Below are positions 4,715-47,008 of a stretch of DNA of 64,000 bases, piece after piece. The DNA comes from Verrucomicrobiota bacterium (GTDB lineage: Bacteria > Verrucomicrobiota > Verrucomicrobiia > Opitutales > Opitutaceae). Position numbers and translations under genes: made by a program. Each line of letters opens with the position of its first letter. Position 1 is the stretch's first letter. A model generated the notes under the pieces. That model had not been told where the DNA came from. It searched no databases and was given only the letters and a program-made list of their open reading frames with translations. The stretch covers positions 1 to 64,000 of the forward strand of contig CANIWJ010000001.1 of the NCBI GenBank assembly GCA_947471035.1. Reading direction: 5' to 3'.

Positions 4715-4952
4715 TTGAACCGCTAAAGTTCGCTAAAGACCGCTAAAGCAAACCTCAGGCATCAGACTTATTTTAACGCAGAGTCGCAAAGTCGCGAAGT
4801 TCGCAGTGGCACGGAAAAGAAAGGTTTCTTTGCGCTTCTCTGCGTCCTTGCGCCTTTGCGTTAAAGTCTGAATTAGAGAGATAGTTGTGACATTAACTAA
4901 ATCGTCCTCAAACTTCTTCTTTAGCGAGGTTTAGCGAAATTTAGCGGTTTAA
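4715..4952. mobile_element. Nested double inverted-repeat element
   Basis: Two inverted repeats sit inside one another. The outer arms (4715-4748 and 4919-4952) are built from repeats of CGCTAAAG or CGCTAAA and match at about 29 of 34 positions. The inner arms (about 4763-4799 and 4830-4871) are built from AACGCAGAGTCGCAAAG-like and CTTTGCGTTAAAGTCTGA-like sequence. The right end supplies the stop codon of the aminotransferase gene at 4949. No protein is encoded. Confidence 0.65.
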
Positions 4953-6169
4953 CCCAAGCTCGCCAGTGCCCGGTCGATCCGGGACAGGGCTTCGTCGATC
5001 TCGGCGTCAGTGTGCGCCGTGCCCAAAAACCAATTATGGTGCGGGTGCAGGTAAACCCCTTCCCGCGCGACGGCGGCGCAGAGCTCCTGCATGCGCTGGA
5101 ACCCCGGATCCTCCGCCACCCGCACATAAGGCATGGCCGGTGGTCCGCTCGCGACCAAGGGTATGCCGTGTTTTTGACCAAGGGCGAGAAACCCCGCCAC
5201 GAAGCGCTGGCCCGCTCGCGCCAGCACCTCCGGCACCGCGTCGCGCGCGCTGATTTCCAAGACTTTTAAGGCCGCCGCCATCGGCACCGGGTCGTTCCAG
5301 TAGCTGCCGGTTAAAAACACTTTGCTCGCCGCCACCTGATAGTCACCGCGACCGGCGCAGGCCGCGATCGGGTGGCCGTTGCCCAGCGCTTTGCAATACA
5401 CCGCGAGGTCAGGCCGCCAGCCATAGGCCCGATGCGAACCACCCACGTGCAAACGAGGAAAACAACGCACGTCATCCAGCACTAACAGCACACCATGCGC
5501 GGCACAGAGCCGGTTGACCGCCGCCACGAACTCCGGCGTCGGCAAAACGCTGTCAGCATAGGCTGGATGGTGAAAGGGCGTGACGATCACCGCCGCGACA
5601 TCGCCCGCCAGGCCGGCGAAGAGGGCTTCGAGACTCGCAACGTCGTTCCAGAGAAATTCGTGCACATGGGCCCGGTCTTCCGCGATCAGTCCGCCATGGC
5701 CGGGCGAGCACCACGCGTGAGTGCCGTGGTAAGCGCCGCGCGCCTTCAAGACCTTGCGCCGCCCAGTGGCTTCGCGCGCCACCTGCACCGCCCAGGTGGT
5801 GAGATCGGAACCGTTTTTGGCAAACACCGCCCAGTCGGCGAAATCAATGCGAGCCACCAAGGCTTCCGCAAGCTCGACCATTAGGCTGGTGGGGTGGTTA
5901 AAACAGGTGCCGCGCGCCCGGGCCGTATCTGCCGCCGCTTCCACTTCAGGGTGGTGATAACCGAGCAGCAGGGGGCCGTAGCCGCACATGAAGTCGATAA
6001 ACTCGTGCCCATCCAAATCCCGGTAACGCGCACCGTGCCCCGCCTCCGCATACGAGGGCAGCGCGCCAGGCACCGTGGCCGCCGGGGTCACGTGACCGTA
6101 GATGCCGCCAGGAATGACACGGCGGGCACGGTCGAAAAGAGCGGCGGAGCGAGGGTAGCTAAGAGGCAT
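4949..6169 (-). CDS. Glutamate-1-semialdehyde aminotransferase-like class III aminotransferase
   Basis: The 406-residue protein is a PLP-dependent class III aminotransferase of the glutamate-1-semialdehyde 2,1-aminomutase type. The N-terminal substrate-side motif IPGGIYGHV, the AYHGTHAW segment, the PLP-contacting LDDVRC (Asp232) and the Schiff-base lysine in YCKALGNGHPIAA (Lys260) are all in place. It is somewhat shorter than typical HemL (about 430) and the PLP loop reads DDVRC, where HemL has DEVMTGFR, so it is more likely a paralogue acting on another amino sugar or amino acid than the tetrapyrrole enzyme. It stands alone between repeats: one overlaps its stop, another begins 1 bp upstream of its start codon. 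Enzyme class is firm, substrate unknown. Confidence 0.8.
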   Translation of the reverse strand: MPLSYPRSAALFDRARRVIPGGIYGHVTPAATVPGALPSYAEAGHGARYRDLDGHEFIDFMCGYGPLLLGYHHPEVEAAADTARARGTCFNHPTSLMVELAEALVARIDFADWAVFAKNGSDLTTWAVQVAREATGRRKVLKARGAYHGTHAWCSPGHGGLIAEDRAHVHEFLWNDVASLEALFAGLAGDVAAVIVTPFHHPAYADSVLPTPEFVAAVNRLCAAHGVLLVLDDVRCFPRLHVGGSHRAYGWRPDLAVYCKALGNGHPIAACAGRGDYQVAASKVFLTGSYWNDPVPMAAALKVLEISARDAVPEVLARAGQRFVAGFLALGQKHGIPLVASGPPAMPYVRVAEDPGFQRMQELCAAVAREGVYLHPHHNWFLGTAHTDAEIDEALSRIDRALASLG

Positions 6170-6197
6170 GAGCTGGTAGAGCTAGTAAGCTAGTAGG
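6170..6197. repeat. AGCT-phased repeat, single arm
   Basis: A run of 8-9 bp units of the type AGCTGGTAG-AGCTAGTA-AGCTAGTAGG lies directly upstream of the aminotransferase start codon. Related arrays occur at 8386-8494, 40486-40545, 42503-42627, 43876-43903 and 44291-44336. Confidence 0.65.
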
Positions 6198-8385: not shown

Positions 8386-8494
8386 AAAAAGCTAGCAGAG
8401 CTAGTAAGCTGGTAGGGCTAGTAGGGGGAAGGAGGAGGACTAAATGGTTCGAGCCTTACCAGCTTACTAGCTCTACTAGCTTACTAGCTTTTTT
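8386..8494. repeat. AGCT-phased repeat, two inverted arms
   Basis: Left arm (8386-8424) and right arm (8454-8494) are arrays of AGCTAGTA-type units in opposite orientation around a 29-bp centre, giving a stem of about 30 bp. The right arm runs into the end of the downstream-labelled gene and supplies its TAG stop at 8484-8486. As a hairpin ending in a T-run on the plus strand and an A-run on the minus strand, it may also affect transcript ends between the two minus-strand genes. Confidence 0.7.
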
Positions 8495-10127: not shown

Positions 10128-10308
10128 CTTGTAGGGCGAGGTCACCGCACCCCGCCGTGGCGAGACCGGGTTTGGTGTAGAATCGGTCGCTGACCGGTTC
10201 CGCTGGTGCCGGTTTTGAAACAAACCGCACCGGTCGGCGACCGATGCTACAGGGTGATGCGAGACCGGGTTTGCGAGCGGCGGGGTGCGGAGACCCCCGC
10301 CCTACAAG
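10128..10308. repeat. Composite inverted-repeat element upstream of pap
   Basis: Outer arms (10128-10157 and 10278-10308) pair over TTGTAGGGCG and CACCCCGCCG blocks. Between them GCGAGACCGGGTTTG occurs twice as a direct repeat (near 10160 and 10260). The centre (10176-10251) is a CGGTCG-type palindrome with arms that begin TGTAG, related to the copy at 1441-1512. The arrangement suggests one palindromic repeat inserted into another. Confidence 0.6.
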
Positions 10309-23887: not shown

Positions 23888-24020
23888 GACGGGAAAGAGC
23901 TACAACTGTGTCGCACGGATCTCCCCCGGATCAACGGCGTTTCTTCCCAGTCGCCCCCAAGCTTCCCCCCGTCATCCCCCCGGCCATCGCCCCCCCAAAC
24001 TGAGTTCTCCGTATTCTTCG

Positions 24021-24065
24021 CCCTCCAGCCTCAAGTAACCTAATAGGTTACTTGAGGCTGGAGGG
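24021..24065. repeat. Perfect 20-bp hairpin with AAGTAACC core
   Basis: A perfect palindrome of two 20-bp arms around the loop TAATA, ending at the core AAGTAACC/GGTTACTT. It lies 27 bp after the fpg stop codon and could end that transcript, although there is no T-run. The same core hairpin occurs twice at 32892-32912 and 32990-33010. Confidence 0.8.
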
Positions 24066-24091
24066 CTGGCGTTTAAATGCTCGTGAATTAT

Positions 24092-40485: not shown

Positions 40486-40545
40486 CTTACCAGCTATACT
40501 AGCTTATCAGCTTACCAGCTCTTCAAGCTTACTAGCTTTAAAAGC
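40486..40545. repeat. AGCT-phased repeat array
   Basis: About seven units of the CTTACCAGCT/TACTAGCTT type directly follow the end of the oxoamine synthase gene (its stop at 40546 abuts the array). Only one orientation is present here. Confidence 0.7.
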
Positions 40546-41745
40546 TCAGAGAGCCTTTTTCTTCGCGTAGGCGAAGGCGTCGGCGATCTGTTCTAGTTGC
40601 GCATCGGTGTGGCCGGCGGAAATGGCGGTGCGGATCAGATCCTTGCCCGGCGGCACGGCGGGGGCGATGGACATTACGGTAAAAACCCCTTTCTCCATGA
40701 GCGCATGCCAGAAAGTGTAGGCTTTATGTTTATCTCCGATCACGACCGGGATGGCGGGGGTCGCACTGCCCCAAGTGTCGAAACCGAGATCGACCAAAAT
40801 CTGGCGGTAACGGCGGGTGTTTTCCTGTAAACGGGCCAAGTGTTCGGGTTCGGTCTGGATGATGTCGAGCGCGGCGGACGCGGCGGCGGCTTGGGCGGGC
40901 GGCAGGGCGGCGCTAAAGATGGTGTGTTTGCCGTGGGTGCGAAGGTATTCGATCAGCTCGCGATCTCCGGCCACGAAACCGCCGACCGAGCCGAGCGATT
41001 TGGACATGCTGCCGCAGATGATGTCGATCTGGTTGGCTACGCCAAAGTGGTCGGCGGTGCCGCGTCCTTGACGGCCGAGCACGCCGAAGCCGTGTGCGTC
41101 GTCGAGCACGGTGAACATCTTGTGCTCGGCGGCGGTGGCGAGCAGTTCGGGCAAGCGGGCGATGTGGCCCTCCATCGAGTAAACGCCTTCGACGGCGAGC
41201 ATCTTGGGCGCGTCGGCCGGCAAGGCGGCGGCGACGGCTCGCAGATCGTCGGGGTTGTTGTGCGCGAAGCGTTCGAGCGTGGCGGTGGAGAGGCGGGCGC
41301 CGTCCCACATGCAAGAGTGGATGTTTTTATCGGCGACGATGATGTCGCCCTTCTGCGCAAAGGCGGCGAGGGCCGAGAGGCAGGAAAGGTAACCGGCGGA
41401 GTGGACTTGGCAGGCCTCTTTACCGAGAAAGGCGGCGAGTTTTTCCTCCAAGGCGACGTGGTAGGAACGGGAGCCGTTGGAAACGCGCGCGCCGGTGGTG
41501 CTCGTGCCCCACTGGAGCAGGGCGGCGCGGGCGGCCTCGATGGTCTTGGGGTGGAAGGAAAGCCCGAGATAATCGTTGCTCGCCAACATGATCATATCGC
41601 GCCCGCCGAGCCGGATGCGGGTGCCGTCCTGCCACTCGGGAGCGTGATAATAAGGCGCGTAACGCAGGCGCAACTTGGTGGCCGAGTCATCGCGGCAACG
41701 CGAACGGATGGAAGGGGGCGTTTTGGAGAAAAAGGACAGGGCCAT
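40546..41745 (-). CDS. Alpha-oxoamine synthase family (KBL/BioF/serine palmitoyltransferase-like)
   Basis: The 399-residue PLP enzyme condenses an acyl-CoA or acyl-ACP with an amino acid. The Schiff-base Lys249 lies in CGSMSKSLGSVGGF and the PLP-contacting Asp/His are in VLDDAHGFGVLG. The motif GTSTTGARVSNGSRSYHVALE resembles the serine-palmitoyltransferase group more than BioF, but KBL cannot be excluded. If it is SPT-like it would start sphingo- or sulfonolipid synthesis. It follows the lolD gene on the same strand with a 73-bp gap. Family firm, substrate inferred. Confidence 0.82.
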   Translation of the reverse strand: MALSFFSKTPPSIRSRCRDDSATKLRLRYAPYYHAPEWQDGTRIRLGGRDMIMLASNDYLGLSFHPKTIEAARAALLQWGTSTTGARVSNGSRSYHVALEEKLAAFLGKEACQVHSAGYLSCLSALAAFAQKGDIIVADKNIHSCMWDGARLSTATLERFAHNNPDDLRAVAAALPADAPKMLAVEGVYSMEGHIARLPELLATAAEHKMFTVLDDAHGFGVLGRQGRGTADHFGVANQIDIICGSMSKSLGSVGGFVAGDRELIEYLRTHGKHTIFSAALPPAQAAAASAALDIIQTEPEHLARLQENTRRYRQILVDLGFDTWGSATPAIPVVIGDKHKAYTFWHALMEKGVFTVMSIAPAVPPGKDLIRTAISAGHTDAQLEQIADAFAYAKKKAL

Positions 41746-41818: not shown

Positions 41819-42493
<675 letters not shown>

Positions 42494-42502
42494 AAAGCGA
42501 GG

Positions 42503-42627
42503 GGAGCTGATAAGCTGGTAGAGCTAGTAATGCTAGGGTGTTCGCTTGCGAATACTGCTCTGCGTGGGCGTGAGTTCATGGGTTATATGGGCAGCTTACT
42601 AGCTCTACTAGCTCATCGGCTTACCAA
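42503..42627. repeat. AGCT-phased repeat, two inverted arms
   Basis: Arrays at 42503-42535 and 42590-42627 face each other around a centre that holds the 26-bp unit with the GTTCGCTTGCGAAT core, also present at 6360-6385. The element fills the gap between the permease stop and the ATPase start. Confidence 0.7.
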
Positions 42628-43866
42628 CTACGAAGAACTCCCCCGGATAATCGATCCCGGCTCCAAGCGTGCGGCGCGCCGGGAAGGGAAATAACTCGCG
42701 ATCAACACCACGATAACCGCGATGACCGCAGCACCCACATAGTGCCAAGGATCCCAAAGCACCACGAAGTGGTCGCTGGCAAAAATACCCCGGATGCGAA
42801 TCGGAATATGCGAAAGTGCATACGTGCCAGCGGCGGCGGCAAGACAGCCGAAGACCACGCCGCAAGCCACCACAATGCCGCCTTGAAGCATGAAGATGCG
42901 GCTGATGTCCGCCCGCGTATAGCCCATGGAGCGTAGAATCGCGATCTCCCGTGTCTTATCGACGACGATCATCACCAGCGTGTTAAACATGCCCAAGCCG
43001 GAGATGAAAATGATGGTTGAAATGGTCAGCGCCGAAGAGATGCGCAATACACTGAAAACCTGCAGCCAGGTTTTCTCCCGCTCTTGCCACGCCAAAGTAG
43101 AATGGCCTACGGCCTCTTCGATGCGCTTGGCCAGAGCCGGCGCGAGCTCGGGCGCCACGACATTGGCTTGGATAAACGATGCCCCCACCGGTTTGTTGAG
43201 CAGGCTACGGCCGGCGGGCAGATGCAGGTAAACCCGCTCGCGATCTACTTGGTCGATGCCGGTTTCGTAAATGGCGTTGATGCGGAAACGCTGCGGTTCG
43301 CCGGCCGCGTCGAGCAATACGGAGTCGCCAATCTGAAGATTCATGCGCTTGGCGATACGTACACCGAGAATCAGCCCGTACGGGTTTTCCGAAAAGGCGC
43401 TCAAAGAGCCGTCGATAATCTGCGTATCGAGATCCGACACGTTCACAAACGACGCCAACTCGATGCCGTAGGGTTTAACGTCATACTCACGAAAATTCGC
43501 GATCAGCGTGGCGTTGCCGCGAATGACTGGCGAAGCGGCGGTAACCTCGGGGAAACGCTTGAGCGCGCCGAGCAAATCGTTCGGGTATTGAACGCCCGGT
43601 ATGTATTTCACCGAACCCTCAACCGCGATGGAGAAGTCGCTGCCTTGGGTGGCGGCTAGCGAGCGGGTGGATTGGATGCGATCCTCGATACGCACCATGC
43701 CATTAACGCCAAGGATGGTCTTGATAAAATAACTCTCAAAGCCGGCGGTCTGAGCCTGGGTGACTACGAAGAAGGCCACGCCAAACACGATGCCAGCCAG
43801 ACTCATCAGCATCGCGCGTTTGCGCGCACTGAGGAACCGTAACGCGATGAGGAGAGCGGGTGACAT
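42628..43866 (-). CDS. ABC transporter permease, LolC/E or MacB-like
   Basis: The 412-residue protein has one N-terminal membrane helix, a large periplasmic domain (about residues 45-270) and three C-terminal helices, the FtsX-like layout of LolC/E and MacB permeases. The conserved region before the last helices (MVDKTREIAILRSMGYTR type, here VVDKTREIAILRSMGYTRAD) contacts the ATPase. It is fed by the adaptor gene upstream and ends in a repeat. The transported substrate is unknown. Confidence 0.9.
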   Translation of the reverse strand: MSPALLIALRFLSARKRAMLMSLAGIVFGVAFFVVTQAQTAGFESYFIKTILGVNGMVRIEDRIQSTRSLAATQGSDFSIAVEGSVKYIPGVQYPNDLLGALKRFPEVTAASPVIRGNATLIANFREYDVKPYGIELASFVNVSDLDTQIIDGSLSAFSENPYGLILGVRIAKRMNLQIGDSVLLDAAGEPQRFRINAIYETGIDQVDRERVYLHLPAGRSLLNKPVGASFIQANVVAPELAPALAKRIEEAVGHSTLAWQEREKTWLQVFSVLRISSALTISTIIFISGLGMFNTLVMIVVDKTREIAILRSMGYTRADISRIFMLQGGIVVACGVVFGCLAAAAGTYALSHIPIRIRGIFASDHFVVLWDPWHYVGAAVIAVIVVLIASYFPSRRAARLEPGSIIRGSSS

Positions 43867-43875
43867 TGGGTAGAA

Positions 43876-43903
43876 GGCTGGTAAGCTGGTAGAGCTGGTA
43901 AGG
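43876..43903. repeat. AGCT-phased repeat, left arm beside the S23-type gene
   Basis: GGCTGGTAAGCTGGTAGAGC and following units face the opposite array at 44291-44336, so the two bracket the four-helix-bundle gene in inverted orientation. The left arm lacks one 8-9 bp unit relative to the right. Confidence 0.65.
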
Positions 43904-43916
43904 GTGGGCGGGCGCG

Positions 43917-44276
43917 TTAGCCGAGGGACCGAATGAGGGCGTTGAGCATGCGGGAGATTTCAGTATAGTTGGACTCTAGTTGTATGTAGTCGGGATCGCT
44001 CAGATAACTAAGATCACGCGAGAGTAGCAGATGGTAGCGCGTTTCTTCCAGTGAACCACGCCCAATGATAAGAAAATGGCGGTAATCGTTATTGGTGGCG
44101 CGGCCTTTACCTTCGGCAATGTTGGTGGGGAGCGAGCGCGCGGAGCCGCGTAGTTGCGCTGTAAGGCCAAATCGTTCTTCGGGCGGAAATGAAGCCGTAT
44201 GCCGGTAGATGCTCAGGCAAGCGGCGTGGGACTTTTGCCACACCTGGAGTTCGCGCCATGAATCGTTGCCTGCCAT
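43917..44276 (-). CDS. Four-helix-bundle protein (S23/IVP type)
   Basis: The 119-residue protein belongs to the four-helix-bundle family first seen inside 23S rRNA intervening sequences. Diagnostic features are LQVWQKSHAACLSIYRHT, FPPEERFGLTAQLRGSARSLPTNIAEG and FLIIGRGSLEETRYHLLLS. Its function is not established; in other settings relatives act as small structural or nucleic-acid-associated proteins. It interrupts a tripartite export operon between the adaptor and the permease gene and is bracketed by inverted AGCT-phased repeats. No functional tie to the pump is expected; it looks like an inserted cargo gene. Confidence 0.9.
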   Translation of the reverse strand: MAGNDSWRELQVWQKSHAACLSIYRHTASFPPEERFGLTAQLRGSARSLPTNIAEGKGRATNNDYRHFLIIGRGSLEETRYHLLLSRDLSYLSDPDYIQLESNYTEISRMLNALIRSLG

Positions 44277-44290
44277 GTGGTGTTTAGAAA

Positions 44291-44336
44291 CTTACTAGCT
44301 CTACTAGCTTATTAGCTTACCAGCTTTGCAGCTTAC
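44291..44336. repeat. AGCT-phased repeat, right arm beside the S23-type gene
   Basis: CTTACTAGCTCTACTAGCTT and further units run into the stop codon of the adaptor gene (44333-44335). It is the inverted counterpart of 43876-43903. Confidence 0.65.
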
Positions 44337-45436
44337 TTCCGCACCTGCACACGTTGCCCGTCGCGCAGGCCATCCAGCCCCGTCAGCGCGACCAAATCGC
44401 CCTCTTTTACGCCCTTGAGAATTTCGACGGCGGTAAGACTACGAAAGCCGATTTCCACCGGCTGCCGACGCACGATGTCGTTTTCAACCACGAAGACCGC
44501 GCCGTTGAGCAAAGCAGCGCGCGGTGCGACGAGCGTATTGGTTCGCCGGTTGCGCAAGATGCTGGCTTCGCCGCTCAAGCCGGGAATGAGCCGGTCGGCG
44601 GCGATTTCGACCTCAAGGTAAGCGCGATACTGCTGATTCTGCGGATCCGCGTTGGGCAACACCTTCACCACCTTGGCGGTGTAAAGCTCAGGTCCGTAAG
44701 CGAGGAAACGCACCGAAGCATCCAAGCCCGGGCGAATCCCCGAAAAATCCTCCTCATTGATTCGTGCTTCAACCAGCAAAGCATCACTGTAAAGCCGAAC
44801 CAAGGGAGCGCGAACCTCGATAACCTCACCCGGTTGCGCAAAGATTTCCGTAATGGTTCCAGCGGCCGGAGAGCGCAGCGAGCAATCGTCGATGTCTTTT
44901 TGCTTTAACTTAATCGCGTGGGCCATGTTGGTGAGTTGCTGTTCGCGACCCAGTCGCTCGCGCGACTGTCCTTCCTGAAACATCGCAAACTCCTCCGTGC
45001 GACGCTTGAGTTCGATTTCGGGGTATTCGCCTGATGCGGTGCGCTTGGCGAAGTTCTCCAAATCCTCCTTGCGGCGCTCCAAAGCGGTTCGTTGATCGAG
45101 ATTCAGTGCGAACTGCTGGCGGGTGTTTTCGAGCTGCAGCTTCATCTGCTCCAACTCCAACGCGTATTTCGACGAATCGATCTCGAAAAGCATGTCACCC
45201 TCTTTAACTCGCTGCCCGCGTTTCACGCTGGATTTGCGCACTAAGCCGGCCACATCGCTGGTGATCGTAACCTGAAACTCCGGGTCCACTTTGACTGCCG
45301 CCGGCACGGCATCGATCGCCACATCGCGCCTTACCACAGCAGCCTCGATCTGCGTGTTGGAACCGAAAAAATACCAGGCACCCGCCATCAAGGCCAGCAC
45401 CGCTAAAACCGTGAAACTTCGTTTGAGAGCAGACAT
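44333..45436 (-). CDS. Periplasmic adaptor (HlyD/MacA-like) of an ABC exporter
   Basis: The 367-residue protein has an N-terminal membrane anchor (residues 8-25), a barrel-sandwich domain, a long coiled-coil hairpin (about residues 105-195), a second lipoyl half and a beta-barrel. It connects the inner-membrane ABC permease to the TolC-like channel encoded upstream. Similar adaptors serve MacB. The order on the minus strand is TolC-like, adaptor, S23-type, permease, ATPase. Confidence 0.9.
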   Translation of the reverse strand: MSALKRSFTVLAVLALMAGAWYFFGSNTQIEAAVVRRDVAIDAVPAAVKVDPEFQVTITSDVAGLVRKSSVKRGQRVKEGDMLFEIDSSKYALELEQMKLQLENTRQQFALNLDQRTALERRKEDLENFAKRTASGEYPEIELKRRTEEFAMFQEGQSRERLGREQQLTNMAHAIKLKQKDIDDCSLRSPAAGTITEIFAQPGEVIEVRAPLVRLYSDALLVEARINEEDFSGIRPGLDASVRFLAYGPELYTAKVVKVLPNADPQNQQYRAYLEVEIAADRLIPGLSGEASILRNRRTNTLVAPRAALLNGAVFVVENDIVRRQPVEIGFRSLTAVEILKGVKEGDLVALTGLDGLRDGQRVQVRK

Positions 45437-45481: not shown

Positions 45482-45559
45482 AATTGGCCGGTGACGGCCA
45501 ACCCTACATGAGTTTGAAATGAATTGATGGGGTGTAGCGTTGGCCGTCCCCGGCCAATT
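45482..45559. repeat. Inverted pair of GGCCGTCCCCGGCC repeats
   Basis: Arms of 27 bp (45482-45508 and 45533-45559, 25 of 27 matching) lie 24 bp apart between the TolC-like and adaptor genes. The right arm is identical to the single copy at 6263-6289. The hairpin could modulate the TolC/adaptor transcript. Confidence 0.65.
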
Positions 45560-45583: not shown

Positions 45584-46933
45584 CTATTTAGAATAATCTA
45601 CTTGGGCATCCACCACCGCCGGAAGCGTGAGGTCGAGGTAGTCATTCAGAGCCAGGAGCAGCCGGACACGCATGCGTAACTCCGCCAACCGGCTCTCCTG
45701 CACCGCGACCTGCTGTTGACGAAATACCGGAGCCGATACGCGACCCTCATCCATTTCGCGCTTTTGAATCGAAAAAGTCTGTTCGGCCAAGGCCGCGCGC
45801 CGCTCGTCCAGTTGATACTGACGCGCCAAAAATCCGATTTGCACGACCACGTTCACCGCCTGGGCACGCAACTCCGAGCGATAGGCCTCCAACTGGCGCT
45901 CCAACCGACGCTGACGCAGCTGCGACTCGCGCTTGCGGGCGGAAGTCTCGAAGCCGTCGAAAATATTCCAGCTGGCATCGATACCGATAAAAGTACTCAA
46001 GGTAGATACATTATTAGCAGCCGAAGTATTGCGCTGCCCCTGCCCGATACTGGCGGTGAAGTTTAATAAAGGCCGTTGGGCAGCTTTAATACGAATGAGT
46101 TCTGCCCGCTCACGCTTGATGAGATTTTCACGGCGCTTGACCTCCGCATGGTCGGCCAGCCAAGCGTCGAGCCCTTGCGCACGCGTCTGCTCTGCCCAGG
46201 CGATAAGAGCGACGGAATCAGGACGCGGCGGCGGCACATCGATACGCAGCGGAACATCCCATCCCAAATTTCGTTTAAAATCGGCTACGATACGCGTCTG
46301 GTCTGAATCGACCTGCTCTAAGTTTAAAACATCTTGGGCTAGATTGATTTCTGCCTGCTCGGAAGCCATGGAGGACAAAGCACCCTGCTGCCGGTCCGAA
46401 GCGGTGCGGGTAGCGTTGTCCGCCGTGATCTGGCGACGCAGGCGAAGGATTTCCAAAGACGTTTGATTGAGCAAAAGAGTGAGGTAATCCGCTCGCAGCC
46501 CGCGCTTAATCTGACGGAGGATAAACACGCGCTGAAGTGACTCATTGTTAAAATCGAGCCTTGCTTGGCGGATCTTGGCCTCGATGGCACCCCAGTGGTA
46601 AATCGGACGCGTGACGCGAGCGTTAAAAGCGATGCCCGTCGTTTGTTCATCGGGGTAATTACCATCTAAATAACTGCTCTGGGTTACGCCAAAATTCCCC
46701 CCGAAATCCAAACGCGGGTAATAAGCAGCCTTTGCTGCGTCGAGTCGTGCAGTAGCCTCCTGCTGCGCGATGGCCTGCGCGACCAAAGCTGGTGCCCGCT
46801 CCCGGGCTTGGTCCAAAATCTGATCCAGCTCAGGCAGGAAAACTTCAGGATAAGTAGGCGACGATTGTGCCAGCAAGCCCGAGGTCGAACCAATCCCGAA
46901 TAGCAATACTGCGATGAAGCGTTGAGCGAACAT
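45584..46933 (-). CDS. TolC-like outer-membrane efflux protein
   Basis: The 449-residue protein is an outer-membrane factor: a signal peptide ending near LLAQ (residue 23), then two repeats of long amphipathic helices with the TolC pattern (residues 30-230 and 240-440). Such trimers form the channel of tripartite efflux. It starts the export operon. The RND system at 10-14 kb has no outer-membrane factor of its own and could share this one, which is an inference. Confidence 0.9.
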   Translation of the reverse strand: MFAQRFIAVLLFGIGSTSGLLAQSSPTYPEVFLPELDQILDQARERAPALVAQAIAQQEATARLDAAKAAYYPRLDFGGNFGVTQSSYLDGNYPDEQTTGIAFNARVTRPIYHWGAIEAKIRQARLDFNNESLQRVFILRQIKRGLRADYLTLLLNQTSLEILRLRRQITADNATRTASDRQQGALSSMASEQAEINLAQDVLNLEQVDSDQTRIVADFKRNLGWDVPLRIDVPPPRPDSVALIAWAEQTRAQGLDAWLADHAEVKRRENLIKRERAELIRIKAAQRPLLNFTASIGQGQRNTSAANNVSTLSTFIGIDASWNIFDGFETSARKRESQLRQRRLERQLEAYRSELRAQAVNVVVQIGFLARQYQLDERRAALAEQTFSIQKREMDEGRVSAPVFRQQQVAVQESRLAELRMRVRLLLALNDYLDLTLPAVVDAQVDYSK

Positions 46934-47008
46934 TCCTTCAAAGCAGATTACCGTAGCCAAGAGGCCAAGCGAAAAGCTGGTGGAAATAGCCTCTAAAAAT
47001 AAATTTGC

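Follow-up and report, generated by a model that had tools for sequence, protein, structure and literature searches.

Inverted short-period arms around S23 genes at operon junctions suggest a small, probably mobile type of hairpin element not recognised before

The S23 family is so far known chiefly from insertions within ribosomal RNA genes. To our knowledge, S23/IVP and GxxExxY are both widespread bacterial families that lack an agreed function, and we know of no catalytic motif in S23. The closest described systems include the 23S rRNA IVSs of Coxiella and Leptospira, in which stem-forming complementary ends surround an S23p ORF and no ORF of a known transposase is present (PMC4990558), and the REPtrons, in which a TnpA-REP/RAYT gene is edged by inverted hairpin repeats that also occur as many dispersed gene-less copies (REPs/REPINs; PMC8266576, PMC3116915). 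Insertion sequences in CPR rRNA genes contain either homing endonuclease or IVP ORFs (PMC11270868), and homology between PF05635 and Avd has been noted (PMC10053308). In Beggiatoaceae, TAACTGA heptanucleotide repeats are abundant as intergenic 7 nt tandem arrays, for which a mobile element or a binding protein has been suggested (PMC4679880). We found no report in the open-access literature of inverted short-period arrays around S23 or GxxExxY genes. A survey of CRISPR-linked proteins names IVP in the legend of one of its figures (PMC10910872), and our guess is that surveys of this kind might mistake short-period arrays beside S23 for CRISPR arrays.

We analyzed a 64,000 nt stretch of an Opitutaceae genome (the window; its genome is G000), in which an earlier note had described an S23-type gene bracketed by inverted AGCT arms inside an export operon at 43876-44336. 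The feature is real, but the listed end, 44336, overlaps the adaptor stop codon. It consists of an S23/IVP ORF between inverted AGCTGGTA arrays, which lies between the genes for an HlyD/MacA-type membrane-fusion adaptor (44333..45436; PF16576, PF13437) and a MacB/FtsX-type permease (42628..43866; PF02687, PF12704). The operon also includes genes for an ABC transporter ATPase (41819..42493; PF00005) and an outer-membrane efflux protein (OEP; 45584..46960; PF02321), and all of these genes, as well as the S23 ORF, are on the minus strand. The ORF (43917..44276) encodes a 119 aa S23, or 23S rRNA IVP/four helix bundle, protein and is the only ORF of at least 80 aa between the arms. It scored 125.4 bits against the PF05635 profile (cut-off 33.8), covering model positions 1-106 of 106, and 117.7 bits against TIGR02436 (cut-off 24); its best relative in the PDB is XCC0516 (2gsc, E=1.6e-18). 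The PF05635 and 2gsc matches are enough to establish the fold of the protein. The dN/dS values of 0.02-0.09 among three congeners indicate that the gene is under purifying selection there.

The upstream arm (X; about 44285..44336, minus strand) is an array of the AGCTGGTA type that starts at the adaptor stop codon, and its coding-strand sequence from this codon onward is TAAGCTGCAAAGCTGGTAAGCTAATAAGCTAGTAGAGCTAGTAAG. The downstream arm (about 43869..43905, minus strand) is the reverse complement of X and stops just short of the permease start; its coding-strand sequence is CTTACCAGCTCTACCAGCTTACCAGCCTTC, also written CTTACCAGCTCTACCAGCTTACCAGCC. The inverted match between the two arms scored 16, compared with a maximum of 13.5 in 2,000 shuffles, and in the predicted RNA fold the arms pair with each other around the S23 ORF, forming the base of the element. 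The fold of the whole element was no more stable than those of shuffled sequences (z -0.54), and its stability was dropped as evidence. Because the spacing of the AGCT arrays alternates between 8 and 9, detection by strict period missed them, and inverted-repeat detection was used instead. Upstream of the adaptor gene, at 45482-45559, lies a different hairpin composed of AATTGGCCGGTGACGGCCAACCCTACA and its inverse, which is shared by G004 (L152 7224-7301) and was not found in the stretch from G007. Further strong inverted repeats, which have no short-period structure, are located at 24020-24066 and 10128-10308.

The element shares with the 23S rRNA IVS its protein family, the complementary ends predicted to form a stem around the ORF and the absence of a known-transposase ORF. 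Unlike the IVS, it lies between the protein-coding genes of an operon rather than in an rRNA helix, its arms are short-period arrays with locus-specific units, and there are cargo-less copies as well as an alternative cargo, GxxExxY. Its neighbors are the adaptor and permease genes, and a conserved 23S motif was found in none of the S23 loci collected by the time of that search. The element resembles the REPtron in being a gene edged by inverted hairpin repeats with many dispersed gene-less copies, but no HuH Y1 transposase gene is present, the 7-9 nt array units vary by locus, and a genome may contain several S23 genes with different units. Thus, it lacks one defining feature of each system, the HuH transposase of the REPtron and the rRNA location of the IVS. 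The ORF is related in sequence to the S23-family structure XCC0516 (2gsc) and to Avd of the diversity-generating retroelements, although the match to the Avd model is weak (22.4 bits against a cut-off of 80, E=1.2e-4). The neighboring genes tested by profile search were export genes and an aminotransferase gene, and no reverse transcriptase, template or variable repeat was found among them. In the CPR insertions, too, the cargo is either an IVP gene or a nuclease gene, but these insertions lie in rRNA, their nucleases are of the LAGLIDADG/GIY-YIG types, and the text of that paper does not mention inverted repeats (PMC11270868). The heptanucleotide repeats of Beggiatoaceae are almost all direct and no cargo is described for them (PMC4679880), whereas the arrays studied here are inverted and bracket S23.

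We compared the export operon among relatives, most of which are represented by draft bins (the estimated contamination of G000 itself is 6.6%). G004 and G007, whose adaptors are 93-94% identical to that of the window, carry S23 with AGCT arms at the same adaptor-permease junction. In G002 and G010 (adaptor identity 65% and 54%), this junction is short and contains neither S23 nor an array; such operons in relatives bear out the proposal in the earlier note that the gene interrupts an adaptor and a permease gene that otherwise adjoin. The AGCT repeat also occurs without cargo, as had been claimed. Inverted-repeat detection revealed a cargo-less inverted element with a spacer of 65 at the permease-ATPase junction (42505..42621) and another with a spacer of 32 at 8389..8482, and single-arm arrays were found at 6157..6195 and, adjoining the aminotransferase gene, at 40492..40546. 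The permease-ATPase junction holds the cargo-less element in G000 and G004, while the stop and start codons overlap there as ATGA in G007 and G002. These differences among congeners imply that the cargo-bearing and cargo-less forms are both polymorphic. No target-site duplication was visible in the one clean junction, that between permease and ATPase, when G000 and G004 were compared with G007 and G002. The AGCT unit is present in 124 copies in G000, where the reversed pattern occurs only 9 times, and in 66 and 143 copies in G004 and G007, respectively. The other twelve members of the genus contain 2-9 copies each, never above the reversed-pattern control, so that the dispersed family was found only in the three species having this S23 copy. 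Elsewhere in the window, the loop of a cargo-less inverted array hairpin at 4715-4952 holds a second one (4772-4865), a hint that hairpin loops can serve as insertion sites for such elements.

Arms of this kind surround S23 genes in general. Defining strong arms by an inverted-flank score of at least 15, we found them at 47 of 90 S23 loci in Opitutales (52%), compared with 1% of mismatched pairs. Of 849 control genes drawn from five genomes, not one had such arms (Fisher p about 1e-54). Among 79 S23 loci from other phyla (Cyanobacteria, Acidobacteria, Planctomycetes, Bacteroidetes, Nitrospirae, Chloroflexi, Omnitrophota, CPR and others), 40.5% were strongly armed versus 2.7% of mismatched pairs, and the corresponding values were 56% and 3.3% for 18 loci on viral contigs, some of which are near-identical to one another. 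The scan for S23 used a narrower alignment in place of a diverse one. Weak or absent arms (score <10) were seen at about 20% of the Opitutales loci and 38% of the other loci. The period of the S23 arms is 7 or, less often, 8, and the repeat unit is specific to nearly every locus (AAAGGCAC, AGCTAGG, TCAGCTT, AGTTGAA, GTAGCGA, GGAGTCA and others). Even within G000, a second and more distant S23 gene (L002; G000:C65) has inverted arms built from a unit of their own (AATGACN), which score 19.5 where shuffles reach at most 14. The expectation that S23 genes elsewhere would be flanked by the same AGCT arrays was not borne out: since almost every locus has a unit of its own, S23 genes without AGCT arrays are the rule, which, taken literally, is the observation that the earlier note had named as contrary to its claim. 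What stays constant is not the repeat family but the gene families, together with an architecture of inverted short-period arms. The occurrence of this arrangement across bacteria with nearly all units different suggests that a small, probably mobile type of hairpin element has so far escaped recognition.

Cargo alternates at a single site. At the pheS-pheT junction of about 50 Opitutaceae genomes, 18 of the loci scored are bare, 13 have a cargo-less hairpin, that of G000 among them, 8 have S23 with arms and 4 have GxxExxY with arms; two further GxxExxY/PDDEXK_3 cases, in G019 and G025, were recognized by coordinates. The junction (L271-L300, L331-L350) is a hotspot across Opitutaceae for array elements, both cargo-bearing and cargo-less. 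GxxExxY genes (L279, L297, L300, L344, L301-L329) are enclosed by inverted arrays of about 9 nt, e.g. AACCACGGAGAACACGGAG; the arm score was at least 15 for 18 of 28 such genes (64%) versus 7% of mismatched pairs, and the mean autocorrelation of their arms peaks at lag 9. This association of GxxExxY with inverted arrays is likewise one for which we found no description in the open-access literature.

Several observations bear on movement. G043 contains two S23 copies with 94.6% identity across 467 nt; their match stops in or near the arrays, and their flanks are different. The CACAAAGG unit that forms the arms of these genes occurs in 464 copies and only in this genome. Cargo-bearing and cargo-less copies agree in polarity, 23 of the 24 pairs among the matches listed being arranged as X...rcX (p=3e-6). 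These results, together with the alternation at pheS-pheT and the polymorphic permease-ATPase junction, uphold in broad terms the idea of cargo-bearing and empty forms of one element, but not the tying of the arms to one repeat family. S23 and dispersed arrays dissociate in both directions: GTAGCGAG arrays are plentiful in G018 and G011, neither of which has a PF05635 match, and G031 carries S23 with GTAGCGAG arms but has no copies of GTAGCGAG beyond them. A strict model in which each helper serves one repeat was rejected because of this dissociation. At the genome level, no arrays were found in 316 kb of five genomes that lack both S23 and GxxExxY, compared with 39 across 784 kb from seven genomes that carry S23, GxxExxY or both, although relatedness confounds this co-occurrence of cargo and arrays.

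The arrays might alternatively be independent of S23, as products of slippage during replication and of inverted-repeat correction; S23 would then be a selfish IVS-type gene that enters the loops of pre-existing hairpins, whether rRNA helices or intergenic array hairpins, and plays no part in array spread. In 23S helices, IVSs do take the place of small tetraloops (PMC4990558), array hairpins without cargo are frequent, arrays are present in genomes without S23, and the nested pair at 4715-4952 and 4772-4865 fits loop insertion. However, for S23 genes at different sites, protein identity and arm similarity are correlated (Mantel r 0.28; 1,000 permutations gave at most 0.137), and this co-variation, the dependence of the arm period on the cargo, the common arms of the near-identical pair in G043 and the absence of the array as well as of S23 from the bare junctions of G002 and G010 make such an independent origin rather unlikely.

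In 83-89% of cases, versus 56% of controls, S23 has the same direction as the gene upstream of it, and sites such as pheS-pheT hold it in several genera. Both facts would suit a vertically inherited resident operon gene whose arms are ordinary regulatory or mRNA-stabilising hairpins. We regard this reading, already disfavored, as improbable, as such arms flank none of the 849 control genes, the sites of relatives are bare or hold other cargo, and the arms show period 7-9 structure and have dispersed copies. An association produced by chance or by the composition of repeat-rich genomes is scarcely credible and already refuted for the association itself. In its favor, some short matches give high scores in cross pairs (1-7%) where the flanks are AT-rich or rich in tandem repeats, but the signal stood out against mismatched pairs, shuffles and the 849 control genes and was replicated in other phyla and viral contigs.

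The explanation that we favor, and consider reasonably probable, is a REPtron-like or IVS-like hairpin-armed element with optional cargo, which is probably mobile and whose cargo protein most likely acts on its own arms. Located between co-transcribed genes, the element would comprise two inverted arms of degenerate short repeats (X ... rcX) and a loop of either about 20-130 nt in the cargo-less form or one gene, which seems to have no promoter of its own and mostly runs in the same direction as its neighbors. The cargo would be matched to the arm class, S23 to mostly period 7-8 and GxxExxY (PD-(D/E)XK_3) to period about 9. Gene and arms may enter operon junctions as one unit, by insertion or by copying. 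The unit sequence presumably drifts fast while the two arms remain complementary, so that related S23 genes at different sites would still have more-alike arms. By analogy with TnpA-REP and REPs, the cargo protein most likely acts on its own arm class as RNA or DNA hairpins and may thereby help the element and its cargo-less copies spread. In the transcript, the arms would form a stem around the ORF and might be processed by RNase III, the enzyme that cuts the precursor in the case of ribosomal IVS elements. The analysis itself demonstrates the arms and their specificity, the alternation of cargo at one site, the polarity, the co-variation between arms and gene and the purifying selection on S23. 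From the patterns in the sequences, we infer the binding of S23 to the arms, this processing, the copying step, the movement itself and the function of S23. The GTAGCGAG dissociation, the low-scoring S23 loci, the lack of a visible target-site duplication and of an S23 catalytic motif, the RNA fold z of -0.54, the phylogenetic confounding and the draft bins count against this explanation.

More tentatively, and short of an even chance in our estimation, the S23 pentamers (period 7/8) and the GxxExxY nucleases (period 9), which are non-transposases, may form a pan-bacterial class of helpers plus hairpins that spread inverted arrays through operon junctions. If this is true, many dispersed short intergenic repeats would be explained, and S23 and GxxExxY would gain their first biological role. 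The placement of these proteins inside inverted array elements, with the period matched to the family and the cargo alternating, suggests a testable role, the recognition of arm hairpins. The elements also offer a candidate spreading mechanism for short tandem intergenic repeats, which are common and unexplained, and may widen the ribosomal IVS into a general operon-borne element.
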